This document shows, piece by piece, positions 28,280-32,276 of a DNA stretch of 64,000 nt. The position numbers and the translations under genes were made by a program. Source of the stretch: Acidobacteriota bacterium. GTDB taxonomy: Bacteria > Acidobacteriota > Vicinamibacteria > Vicinamibacterales > UBA823. Every line of letters starts with the position of its first letter. Position 1 is the stretch's first letter. The stretch is taken from positions 62,001 through 126,000 of the forward strand of contig PCAK01000044.1 in assembly GCA_002730525.1 (NCBI GenBank), in the 5' to 3' direction. Under the pieces are notes generated by a model. It worked only from the letters and a program-made list of their open reading frames with translations, did not search any database and was not told where the DNA came from.

Positions 28280-28360
28280 TGAGCGTATACTATGCGAGTT
28301 CTCGGACGGGCTACCGGCTCCGTCTGCGTCCTCCAGCGACACGCGAACGGCGGGACACGA

Positions 28361-29506
28361 GTGCCACGGCTGCGGATCGGCGTACTGTATGGGGGTCGCT
28401 CTGGCGAGCACGAAGTCTCGCTGGCGTCGGCGGCCGCTGTCATCGCACATCTCGATCCCGATCTCTACGAACCGATCGCAATTCTCGTCGGCCGCGACGG
28501 ACGCTGGCGTCTCCCCGATCGCCCGCCGACCATCGTCGAAGCCGCCGACATCATCCAGCACGCCCGCCGCGAAGCTGCCGAATCCGTCAGCGCGCCGCCG
28601 ACCACACCACCGCCGCCAAGGGTGACCGAGCCGGAGGCGATGGTGCAGCGCGCGGACGGCACCGTCGCACCGGGGGTGCAGCATCTCGCGCTCGACGTCG
28701 TGTTTCCCGTGCTGCATGGCCCGTACGGGGAGGACGGCACGGTGCAGGGCCTCCTTGAGCTGGCTGACGTGCCCTACGTTGGCGCCGGAGTCCTGGCCTC
28801 GGCCGTCGGGATGGACAAGGCCGTGATGAAAGTGCTGTTCGGCGCGAACGGCCTGGCACAGGTCGACCACCGTCTCGTCCGGAGTGCGGCCTGGCAGGAC
28901 GATCCCGCGGCAATTCGCCAGATGATCGCCTCCGAGCTCGGGGCGCCTCTCTTCGTGAAGCCGGCCAACCTCGGGTCGAGCGTGGGGATCTCCAAGGTCA
29001 AGACGCCTGACGATCTGGATGCGGCGATCGCTCTGGCCGCCCAGTTCGATCGGAAGATCATCGTGGAGGCGGCGGTGCCGAACGCCCGGGAGATCGAGTG
29101 CGCCGTCCTCGGCAACGACACCATCGAGACGTCGGTACCGGGCGAGGTCGTCCCCTCGCGTGAGTTCTACGACTACGAGGCCAAGTATCTCGACCAGGGC
29201 TCGGTACTACGCATTCCGGCGCCGATAGAGCCCGACGAGGCCGCAGAGGTGCGGCGGCTCGCGGAGGCCGCGTTCCGCGCGATCGACGGTTGCGGCATGG
29301 CCAGAGTGGATTTTCTACTGAACGATGAGACGCGTGAGTTGTTCGTGAACGAACTGAACACGATTCCCGGATTCACCACGATCAGCATGTATGCGAAGTT
29401 GTGGGAGGCCAGCGGTCTCGCGTACCCGCAACTCCTCGACCGTCTCGTCGAGCTCGCGCTCGAACGCCATGCCGACAAACAGCAGCTCCATACGAGTGCG
29501 ACGTGA
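28361..29506 (+). CDS. ddl: D-alanine--D-alanine ligase
   Basis: ATP-grasp enzyme making the D-Ala-D-Ala dipeptide for peptidoglycan. 381 residues from GTG 28361 (start MPRLRIGVLYGGRSGEHEVS). The ATP-grasp domain shows FVKPANLGSSVGISKV and the metal-binding NELNTIPGFT; a Ser/Pro-rich insert near residues 80-105 makes it slightly long. The upstream in-frame ATG at 28292 directly abuts a TATACT box (28286-28291) and so is an unlikely start. Divergent from tgt. Monocistronic as far as I can see. Confidence 0.95.
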   Translation: MPRLRIGVLYGGRSGEHEVSLASAAAVIAHLDPDLYEPIAILVGRDGRWRLPDRPPTIVEAADIIQHARREAAESVSAPPTTPPPPRVTEPEAMVQRADGTVAPGVQHLALDVVFPVLHGPYGEDGTVQGLLELADVPYVGAGVLASAVGMDKAVMKVLFGANGLAQVDHRLVRSAAWQDDPAAIRQMIASELGAPLFVKPANLGSSVGISKVKTPDDLDAAIALAAQFDRKIIVEAAVPNAREIECAVLGNDTIETSVPGEVVPSREFYDYEAKYLDQGSVLRIPAPIEPDEAAEVRRLAEAAFRAIDGCGMARVDFLLNDETRELFVNELNTIPGFTTISMYAKLWEASGLAYPQLLDRLVELALERHADKQQLHTSAT

Positions 29507-29636: not shown

Positions 29637-29664
29637 TTGACACTCCGCTTTTCTCATCCATAAT
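29637..29664 (+). promoter_or_regulatory. Promoter of the small Lys-rich genes
   Basis: Consensus -35 TTGACA (29637-29642), 16-base spacer, -10 CATAAT (29659-29664). A second TTGACA lies 23 bases upstream (29614-29619), and TTTGTGC is repeated between them. The whole stretch is clearly AT-richer than its surroundings. Confidence 0.7.
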
Positions 29665-29762
29665 CTACATCTTGTATGACGGTGGACCGCTCAGCCCACC
29701 TATTGTGACACCTCGGCACCGGTTAATGAGCTGAGCCAGCCAGGACACTCCAAGGAGGAACA

Positions 29763-29834
29763 ATGGCGAAGAAGAAGAAGGCAGCCAAGAAGAAGAGGAA
29801 GGCCGCGAAGAAAAAGGGTGCGAAGAAGCGCTAG
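29763..29834 (+). CDS. Tiny lysine-rich protein 1 (23 residues)
   Basis: A 23-residue peptide, MAKKKKAAKKKRKAAKKK followed by GAKKR, made almost wholly of Lys, Ala and Arg. It is too short for usual gene finders but is strongly supported: a consensus ribosome site AAGGAGG (29752-29758) at good spacing, a promoter at 29637 and a terminator at 29856. A close paralogue starts 254 bases downstream. The composition resembles the tails of histone H1-like and HU-like bacterial proteins, so binding to DNA or RNA is likely; a small basic ribosomal protein is another option. I do not know its function. Confidence 0.85.
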   Translation: MAKKKKAAKKKRKAAKKKGAKKR

Positions 29835-29855
29835 TTCGCTCCGCCAACCGGTACG

Positions 29856-29889
29856 GGGGTGTCAGCAACATCGACACCCCTAATTTTTT
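29856..29889 (+). terminator. Terminator after Lys-rich gene 1
   Basis: 8-bp stem GGGGTGTC (29856-29863) with GACACCCC (29873-29880), nine-base loop, then TAATTTTTT. It lies 21 bases after the first small gene, so the second small gene is either read through or separately transcribed. Confidence 0.92.
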
Positions 29890-30016
29890 GCCTTCGACCG
29901 TCGCGGTAGACGGTCGGTCAGCGGAGCGAGGCGCCGTCATACGCTCGCCGATTTCCGGCCTTGCGTTGGGTGCCTCGCACGTCGAAATCTCCGGATGAAG
30001 GGGGGGATAAGAGCTA

Positions 30017-30082
30017 ATGGCGAAGAAAAGAAAGGCAGCCAAGAAGAAGAAGGCGGCGAAGAAGGGCGGCAAGAAGCGTTAA
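30017..30082 (+). CDS. Tiny lysine-rich protein 2 (21 residues)
   Basis: A 21-residue paralogue of the gene at 29763: MAKKRKAAKKKKAAKKGG then KKR. The shared start MAKK, the AAKKK repeats and the KKR end show recent or constrained duplication. A purine run AAGGGGGGGA at 29998-30008 lies 8 bases before the ATG and can act as ribosome site, and a very strong terminator follows 16 bases after the stop. Between the two genes (29890-30016) I see no convincing promoter pair. Probably a nucleic-acid-binding peptide, by composition only. Confidence 0.82.
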   Translation: MAKKRKAAKKKKAAKKGGKKR

Positions 30083-30097
30083 GCTTCCTTCACCCGT

Positions 30098-30134
30098 CAT
30101 GAAAAAGGGGGCGACCGTCGCCCCCTTTTTCATG
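30098..30134. terminator. Bidirectional terminator with 17-bp stem
   Basis: CATGAAAAAGGGGGCGA (30098-30114), loop CCG, and its exact complement (30118-30134). The A-run and T-run lie within the stem, so it can stop transcription both from the small Lys-rich gene (plus) and from the HEAT-cyclophilin gene (minus, stop at 30159). Confidence 0.93.
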
Positions 30135-30158: not shown

Positions 30159-32276
30159 CTACTCCCGGCCGATCATCGAAATCCCGTCCCAGACCCGGGT
30201 TCGCCGGATCACGTCCCACTGGGCCAGGCCGTCGACGACCGCCATCCCATCGACAACCCGTCCGATCACCGTGTACCGCCCATCGAGGTCGGGCTGCGGC
30301 GTGAGCGCGATGAGGAACTGCCCCGCCCCGGTCTCGGGCTCGTCGTCCTGCCAGTCCATCGCGACGGTTCCGCGGAGGATCGGCCGCTCACTGACCTCGT
30401 CCCGGACCGTGAGGCCGGATCCGCCAAAGCCGTCACCGCGCGGGTCGCCGCCCCGCACCACGCCGTTCGGCACGACCTCGTGGAACGCGACGTCGTGGAA
30501 GTAGCCGTTGCCGGCCAACTCCGCGAACCGACGGGTCGACAGTGGCGCGTCGAGGACCGTCAGCTCGATCTGGATCGTTCCGGCATCGGTCTCGAGATAG
30601 ACCTGCGGGGACACCGACGGATCGGCCAGCGTCAGGCTCTCCTCGAAGGTCGGTCCCGGCATCGGTCGAATCCGGTCGGCATACGGCGCGCCCTCTTCCT
30701 CGGCGTCCAGCAGAGTGGCGGCACGCAGCCGCACCGCCCAATCCGCGTCCATCAGTGCCGCACCCAGCACCTCGGTCGCCTCGGCGCCGCCGAAGCCGAC
30801 GACCGCGTCGACGATTGCCCGTCGGACGGCGGCTCCCTGCGCGCCCTGGCTCGTTTCGTACGCCTCGACCAGAGCCGCCGCGCCTCCCGGCGGTCGAAGG
30901 ATGCCAAGCTGACGGGCACCCGCCATCCGGATCACCGGGTCGTCGTCCTCCAGCGCCTCGAGCGCGGCCTCGGTCGCACCGGGCGCCCGATGCCGGGCCA
31001 GCGACGCCAGGACGGACGGCAGGACGCGCCGGTCCGGGTCGTCGAGCATCGTCTCGAGTCGCGGCACGGCCAGGTCCGGATTCATCGACCCCAGCAGTTC
31101 CGCCAGGGTAGCCCGCACGCTCCAGTGCGGATCGGTGTCGAATCCCGACAGCACGATCAGAAACATCTGGGCATCGTCTGCGAGCCCGCGCAGCGCCGCC
31201 GCCCTGATCGTGGGTTGGGGAAATGAGATGAGGTCGAGGAAGAGGTCGGTCGACGGTTCTCCGCCGACCCGGCCCAGGGCGCGAACGACCTCGAGCAACA
31301 CCCCCCCGTCAAGATCGGGATCGCGCAGCAGCTCGATCAGCGGCGCGACCGCATTCGGGCCGGACACCCCCGCCAGTGCGCGTACCGCCGCCACAATGAC
31401 CTGAGCGTCATACCGGGCCGGGTTCAAGAGCGGCGTCAGCAACTCGGCCGTCGCGGCTTCGCCGAGCCGGCCAAGCCCCTCGGCCGCAAAGGCGACGCGG
31501 TAGCTGCCCGTCCCGCGCGTGAGTTCCGCCAGGGCCGCCGCGCCGCGCGGGTCGCCCAGCCGCTGGAGTGCCCACGCCACCGGCCACCATCGCACCCGTG
31601 GCAGGTTGTTCTCATCAAGGACCGCCGCGGCCAGCGGCGCGTAGGCCTCGAGCCGCGCGAGCGCGATGACGCCGAGCCGGAACGCTTCCACCGCCGCCGG
31701 CTGCGGGTAGGTCATGTCGTCGGACTCGACCGCGGCCGCCATCGGCGTCAACTGGGCGACCATCTCCCCAATGGCCGGCGCCGCCTCGCGCGCGCCGATT
31801 CGACCCAACGCCTCGGCCGCCCGCCCGCGCGCCAGCGGGTCCGGATCCCCCAGCTCCATGATCAATGCGTCCGCCGACTCGGATGCCGCCAGCTGTCCCA
31901 GGGCGAACGCAGCCATCTGACGCACGGCGGGGTTCGAATCCGCGAGCGACGCGCTGAGCGGCGCGACGGCGTCAGGCACTCCGACGCGTCCAAGCGCGAT
32001 CGCCGCGCGTCGACGGACGCGAGCCTCCGGATCCTGGAGCAACTCGATCAGGCCCGGCATCATCGGCCTCGGCGTCCCGGGCACGAGCGCGGGCACCGCC
32101 ACCACCGCGCCATCGGGCGGCGCAACCGCGCGCTGATGCTCGAGTTGAAGGATGACCGCCAGCTTCTGCTGAACCGCCAAGGTCGGCGGCACCGTCGGCG
32201 GTGCCGTCGCGCAGCCGGCGGCGACAACGACCGAGGCGGCGACCACGGCCGCCCAGCGACTCGCGAGGGTGATCAT
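30159..32276 (-). CDS. HEAT-repeat lipoprotein with C-terminal cyclophilin-like domain
   Basis: A 705-residue exported lipoprotein: signal peptide and lipobox AAGC with Cys22, many HEAT/PBS-type helical repeats (about residues 70-520, such as DPEARVRRRAAIALGRVG), then a cyclophilin-type peptidyl-prolyl isomerase domain (about 560-705). The domain is recognisable by YLETDAGTIQIEL, GGDPRGDGFGG and GQFLIALTPQPDLDGRYTVIG. The catalytic Arg of cyclophilins (FHR) is Glu600 here (FHEVVP), so isomerase activity is doubtful and the domain may bind only. It precedes nothing on its strand except the terminator at 30098. Its partner is unknown; the build suggests an envelope scaffold or chaperone. Confidence 0.9.
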   Translation of the reverse strand: MITLASRWAAVVAASVVVAAGCATAPPTVPPTLAVQQKLAVILQLEHQRAVAPPDGAVVAVPALVPGTPRPMMPGLIELLQDPEARVRRRAAIALGRVGVPDAVAPLSASLADSNPAVRQMAAFALGQLAASESADALIMELGDPDPLARGRAAEALGRIGAREAAPAIGEMVAQLTPMAAAVESDDMTYPQPAAVEAFRLGVIALARLEAYAPLAAAVLDENNLPRVRWWPVAWALQRLGDPRGAAALAELTRGTGSYRVAFAAEGLGRLGEAATAELLTPLLNPARYDAQVIVAAVRALAGVSGPNAVAPLIELLRDPDLDGGVLLEVVRALGRVGGEPSTDLFLDLISFPQPTIRAAALRGLADDAQMFLIVLSGFDTDPHWSVRATLAELLGSMNPDLAVPRLETMLDDPDRRVLPSVLASLARHRAPGATEAALEALEDDDPVIRMAGARQLGILRPPGGAAALVEAYETSQGAQGAAVRRAIVDAVVGFGGAEATEVLGAALMDADWAVRLRAATLLDAEEEGAPYADRIRPMPGPTFEESLTLADPSVSPQVYLETDAGTIQIELTVLDAPLSTRRFAELAGNGYFHDVAFHEVVPNGVVRGGDPRGDGFGGSGLTVRDEVSERPILRGTVAMDWQDDEPETGAGQFLIALTPQPDLDGRYTVIGRVVDGMAVVDGLAQWDVIRRTRVWDGISMIGRE

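Follow-up and report, generated by a model that had tools for sequence, protein, structure and literature searches.

The window, meaning the whole 64,000-nucleotide stretch of DNA analysed here, carries two very short tandem open reading frames on its plus strand, both supported by the ORF listing, by conservation and by codon drift. ORF1 (29763-29834) encodes the 23-residue peptide MAKKKKAAKKKRKAAKKKGAKKR and ORF2 (30017-30082) the 21-residue peptide MAKKRKAAKKKKAAKKGGKKR, both exactly as the original prediction described them. Upstream lies the consensus-like promoter that had also been proposed, TTGACA-N16-CATAAT (29637-29664, plus strand), which matches 11 of 12 consensus bases, has no second instance in the 3 kb scanned, where 0.2 would be expected by chance, and, according to the motif scans, forms the core of an order-wide motif, TTTGTGCTTGACA...TCTCATCCATAATCTACAT. 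With the transcript start inferred from the -10 element, the conserved 5' leader of ORF1 spans 29671-29762 (plus strand) and includes the ribosome site AAGGAGG (29752-29758, plus strand). This site stands as predicted, and the picture has to be corrected for ORF2, which has its own ribosome site, GGGGGGGAT (30000-30008, plus strand). The latter is conserved throughout the order and pairs at 8 of 9 positions with what we take to be the extended 3' end of 16S rRNA.

Each ORF is followed by a terminator, and both predicted stems were located. Terminator 1 (29856-29889, plus strand) consists of an 8-bp stem, GGGGTGTC/GACACCCC, followed by TTTTTT, and terminator 2 (30098-30134, plus strand) is an 18-bp palindrome with a T-rich arm at its end on both strands, usable from either strand and shared with a convergent gene. 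A simple terminator scan detected neither, both lying outside its loop limits. In a folding scan of 59 two-ORF loci, by comparison, ORF1 is followed by a terminator in 41 (about 9 in shuffled sequence) and ORF2 in 54-55 (about 11 in shuffled sequence). ORF1 would be expressed directly from the promoter. None of the 59 two-ORF loci has a recognisable promoter between its two ORFs, which makes read-through of terminator 1 the simplest route to ORF2; the alternative would be a promoter of a kind that escapes recognition.

The unit sits, as claimed, between ddl, encoding D-Ala-D-Ala ligase (28292-29506, plus strand), and a lipoprotein-like gene (30159-32276, minus strand), and the synteny is conserved on both sides. 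The convergent neighbour encodes HEAT repeats and a cyclophilin-type PPIase behind a lipoprotein-like N terminus. This lipoprotein-like HEAT-repeat/PPIase fusion adjoins the locus across the whole class.

Used as a DNA query, the 541-bp locus matched 54 of the 60 order genomes; the start motif was found at the locus within the 60 relatives and never in the reversed control. An exact scan of the promoter motif over 84,980 species, with one genome per species, returned 85 matches, and the records listed are Acidobacteria-type MAGs except three (L144, L161 and L217), MAG records titled Cyanobacteria or Acidimicrobiia whose titles look mislabelled. Named Luteitalea and Vicinamibacterales records also carry the promoter. 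Lys/Ala ORFs (one or two, once three) follow in 119 of 122 distinct promoter loci, and the remaining three are promoter copies in front of ftsZ. A mobile or phage origin was rejected: the promoter motif has no match in the viral collection and PHROG gave none.

A strict pattern search across the phylum placed the gene in this order only, the pattern being too strict to detect sister families. In three of these (f16, f17 and f19), tiny Lys-rich ORFs occupy the same position, tgt-(ddl)-K-(HAD)-PPIase, and encode peptides such as MPAKKKAAKKATKKKK plus MPMKKAKKAAPKKKAKKK, MAAKKAAKKAAKKKK or MAKKKAAAKKKATKVTKKKAAKKK. They have their own ribosome sites (GGGGGGAT or GGAGAGGAGG) and terminators, and the promoter model gives a weak score or none for these families. 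The two-ORF, two-terminator layout is also present in f16 (L268) and is therefore probably older than the order. The tgt/ddl neighbourhood yielded no such locus in f18 and in part of f9, and these losses indicate that some genomes can do without it. Families f6 and f11 have lost ORF1, and in part of f12 it has decayed (ATG to ACG), while ORF2 is kept. Judged from comparative sequence data, the locus is a class-wide micro-gene unit of the Vicinamibacteria (Acidobacteriota), present in soil and marine members.

The codon record shows selection on the peptides. In equal-length ORF1/ORF2 pairs from the same locus, codon differences comprise 138 synonymous and 39 non-synonymous changes, whereas only 22% of random point changes in these ORFs would be synonymous (p about 1e-56, a value overstated because the loci are related). 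In 16 of the 28 such pairs both ORFs encode one and the same peptide despite 3-8 synonymous differences. Similarly, the 16-residue form occurs in 26 copies with 16 distinct DNA sequences, in which all changes fall at third positions or between the Arg codons CGN and AGR, save at one Gly/Ala position. ORF1 and ORF2 of one locus are often closer to each other than to their counterparts in other families, which suggests gene conversion between them or selection common to both. Both ORFs are coding, with the frame under strong purifying selection. Class-wide conservation, codon drift that is largely synonymous, and the conservation of ribosome sites, terminators and synteny strongly bear out the claim that they are real genes; in the relatives checked for loss of the frame or of the ribosome site, both are conserved.

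Three other readings of the ORFs were rejected. A chance low-complexity ORF is ruled out by the order-wide conservation together with the codon drift. An antisense ORF of 135 aa (29665-30072, minus strand) was dismissed because the conserved starts, stops, ribosome sites and codon drift all belong to the plus strand. A leader ORF upstream of ORF1 (TTG-TAT-GAG...) contains an in-frame TAG in most of f4, and many families have no start codon for it.

Across the loci the peptides consist of about 51% Lys and 28-31% Ala, followed by Gly, Arg, Thr, Val and Pro; aromatic and acidic residues are absent. Their length ranges from 14 to 65 aa, mostly 14-23, and nearly all start with MAKK and end with KKR. 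Family f9 has an enlarged peptide of 35-65 aa that resembles a histone H1 tail. Composition, net charge and termini are what is conserved, while length and, apart from the ends, position are not. Short and cationic as they are, such peptides could in principle be antimicrobials or toxins, secreted or intracellular. This we consider barely credible, since a signal or leader sequence is absent, the hydrophobic residues are limited to Ala and Val, no immunity, export or processing genes were recognised among the conserved neighbours, the synteny is of a housekeeping kind, and neither PADLOC nor PHROG gave a match.

Conservation at the ORF1 leader extends far past the promoter. In the window, GGTGG (29681-29685) and CCACC (29696-29700) form a hairpin, which is formed in 75% of cells and whose covariation score exceeds all 500 shuffles. 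Its loop, GCTCAGC (29689-29695), is complementary to GCTGAGC (29730-29736), a segment shortly before the ribosome site, so that the two can pair. A loop partner of at least 6 bp in this position exists in 51 of 83 loci, against a mean of 5.4 and at most 14 after shuffling. Hairpin and loop pairing together would make a putative H-type pseudoknot. RNAalifold, run on plain alignments, gave no consensus fold for this leader. The f16/f17 leaders (L266-L271) have another sequence, in which the complementary segments GTCAA/TTGAC and CCCC/GGGG cross, so that an H-type pseudoknot is possible there as well.

Leader 1 also occurs apart from its usual ORF. It is kept where ORF1 has been lost or has decayed (L041 in f11, L043 in f6, L064 and L068 in f12), and in L041 it runs straight into a terminator, which would leave an ORF-less RNA of roughly 105 nt. 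Genus g4 has a second copy of promoter and leader 1 in the gap that separates ftsA from ftsZ, immediately ahead of the latter (L082:1564-1683, G004:C2:92965-93044; also in G005, G006 and G007). This copy appears to be a recently duplicated expression or control module, and its position before ftsZ marks the leader as portable.

Observations of this kind bear on the idea that the RNA itself is the product, with the promoter-leader-terminator unit acting as a dual-function regulatory small RNA and the peptide being secondary. The leader is indeed better conserved than the peptide, and it persists without ORF1 in f6 and f11, running into a terminator in one f11 genome. We nevertheless find the idea quite improbable, because ORF2 is kept where ORF1 is lost, the drift is mostly synonymous, and f16 and f17 keep their peptides behind a different leader sequence.

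The ORF2 leader takes the form, across the order, of a long interrupted hairpin with an apical TGCC-NNNN-GGCA. This conserved, probably structured RNA (29891-30008 in the window; relatives such as L145, L151 and L154) has TGCC-AGGC-GGCA as its apical element, with GGTA and GAAA loops occurring too. The predicted structured part, comprising hairpins at 29894-29984 (plus strand), was assigned in the window by position and fold, its sequence there being divergent. Despite this divergence, the minimum-energy fold retains a predicted SD-sequestering hairpin, ATCTCC (29987-29992)/GGGGAT (30003-30008), which spans 29987-30008 on the plus strand and contains the ORF2 ribosome site. Pairing of the ATCCC/GGGAT type that would hide the ribosome site reaches at least 5 bp in 36 of 92 cases (shuffled mean 21, maximum 29), and 28 of 57 can form the stem under the apical hairpin (16 when permuted, maximum 25 in 500 permutations). 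Single-sequence folding energies are slightly below those of shuffled sequences (mean z -1.2), and RNAalifold on plain alignments recovered a 3-bp stem alone.

For both leaders, the direct counts of pairings provide moderate evidence for structure. A known riboswitch or other known RNA was rejected, since neither leader exceeded the Rfam gathering cut-off and the sub-threshold matches fall mostly on the terminator. The conserved, probably structured leaders and the ftsZ copy suggest translational control, perhaps by the peptide itself.

A different kind of control would be attenuation, in which a lysine-codon leader peptide senses lysyl-tRNA and governs a downstream gene. A short Lys-rich ORF followed by a terminator is the arrangement that this would call for. 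Downstream, however, lie only ORF2 and then the palindromic terminator and the convergent gene; terminator 1 begins about 20 nt beyond the ORF1 stop; whole families lack ORF1 and retain ORF2; and Rfam gave no match. Attenuation is accordingly a very improbable account of the locus.

With confidence that is evenly divided, we favour the reading that the locus yields one or two short Lys/Ala polycations, similar to an H1 tail or a protamine, that would bind DNA or RNA non-specifically and whose translation would be controlled by the leaders. The peptides would probably be disordered, free polyelectrolytes lying on the phosphate backbones of DNA, RNA or both without sequence specificity. The bound polycation would neutralise charge and compact or stabilise the nucleoid or ribosome-rich RNA. 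Translation would be set by pairing of the loop with the SD region before ORF1 and by the SD-sequestering hairpin before ORF2, possibly as feedback when the polycation is in excess. Abundance of the peptides is plausible given the strong promoter, the ribosome sites and the MAKK start, and nucleic-acid binding would fit the composition and the H1-tail-like long forms. Conservation of charge and composition with freedom of length favours a polyelectrolyte over a fixed fold or a fitted binding site.

Some considerations count against this proposal. The genome has separate HU-family genes, so the peptides would not be the sole nucleoid proteins, and at physiological salt so short a polycation would bind only weakly if it were not abundant. 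A role as a polyamine substitute was also considered and set aside, as there is no clear link between SAM decarboxylase and presence or absence of the locus. SAM decarboxylase (SpeD, PF02675) was not found in the family of the window, f1 (G000-G008), and has a patchy distribution within the order.

From composition alone, a function on DNA looks no different from one on the ribosome or RNA, and the main rival to the polycation reading is a ribosomal one. Here the peptide would be a ribosome-associated small basic protein that contacts rRNA at a defined or semi-defined site, as bTHX, bS22 and bL37 do, with autoregulated leaders as in ribosomal-protein operons. It would account for genes that are very short, encode basic products, look strongly expressed and have conserved leaders, and a MAKK start is typical of highly expressed translation genes. 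Known small ribosomal proteins are nevertheless unlike the Lys/Ala peptides in positional conservation and length range: the peptides vary from 14 to 65 aa without positional conservation, and those of the window match no solved chain, ribosomal ones included. On this evidence we regard the ribosomal role as unlikely.

The polycation reading can be extended to a class-wide set of 'tail-only' nucleoid- or RNA-binding microproteins, mostly of 14-23 residues, each an H1 tail that lacks its histone, with a dedicated and highly conserved promoter and with structured leaders that would keep the balance by sensing the polycation, the same leader having been recruited to ftsZ in a single genus. This fuller version, drawn from sequence comparison, is tentative and on balance doubtful. 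Gene callers pass over genes so short and of such low complexity, and homology searches mask them, yet this one has been kept across a bacterial class with housekeeping-type synteny and regulation. If confirmed, it would mean that selection can maintain, and regulation can act on, a gene whose product is nothing more than a polycation of 14-20 residues. The poorly studied Vicinamibacteria would gain a characteristic gene, testable in cultured Luteitalea and Vicinamibacter, and a simple natural system would become available for what a histone-like tail does alone.

The peptides of the window matched no Pfam, NCBIfam, PHROG or PADLOC family and, at E up to 10, no chain in the PDB, a test limited by very short low-complexity queries, and six characteristic peptide stretches did not occur in the literature searched. 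The window ORFs gave no Pfam match to the HU domain of HU/IHF (PF00216). The small ribosomal proteins bTHX, bS22 and bL37 are likewise tiny, basic and presumably abundant; they share no sequence match with the peptides described here, which have no conserved positions apart from the ends.

Histone H1-like proteins of the Burkholderia type (NCBIfam NF038053) share an Ala/Lys/Pro-rich basic composition, and the longest form gave a weak match to the model (E 0.0055, under the cut-off), but they are far longer (195 model positions). The chlamydial H1-like protein Hc2 (HctB; PF07382, NCBIfam NF038052) has Lys/Ala-rich repeats of variable repeat length, as the peptides do. The 65-aa form scored 19.1 bits against PF07382 (E 0.0015), below the gathering cut-off of 40 bits, and the window ORFs gave no match to it. 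In C. trachomatis, Hc2 measures 165-237 aa, varying with the number of Lys-rich repeats (PMC2848022). Against these 165 or more residues stand the 14-65 aa of the present peptides, which come as a pair across the class, behind a conserved promoter and conserved leaders.

Eukaryotic histone H1/H2B tails and protamines are likewise Lys(Ala)-rich polycations, the likeness being compositional; in the PDB, the 65-aa form gives weak matches (E 0.05-0.3) to the N-terminal tails of H2B. Here, however, the tail makes up the whole protein and no folded domain accompanies it. The family is new, and its likely working principle, that of a Lys-rich disordered polycation, is one already known.
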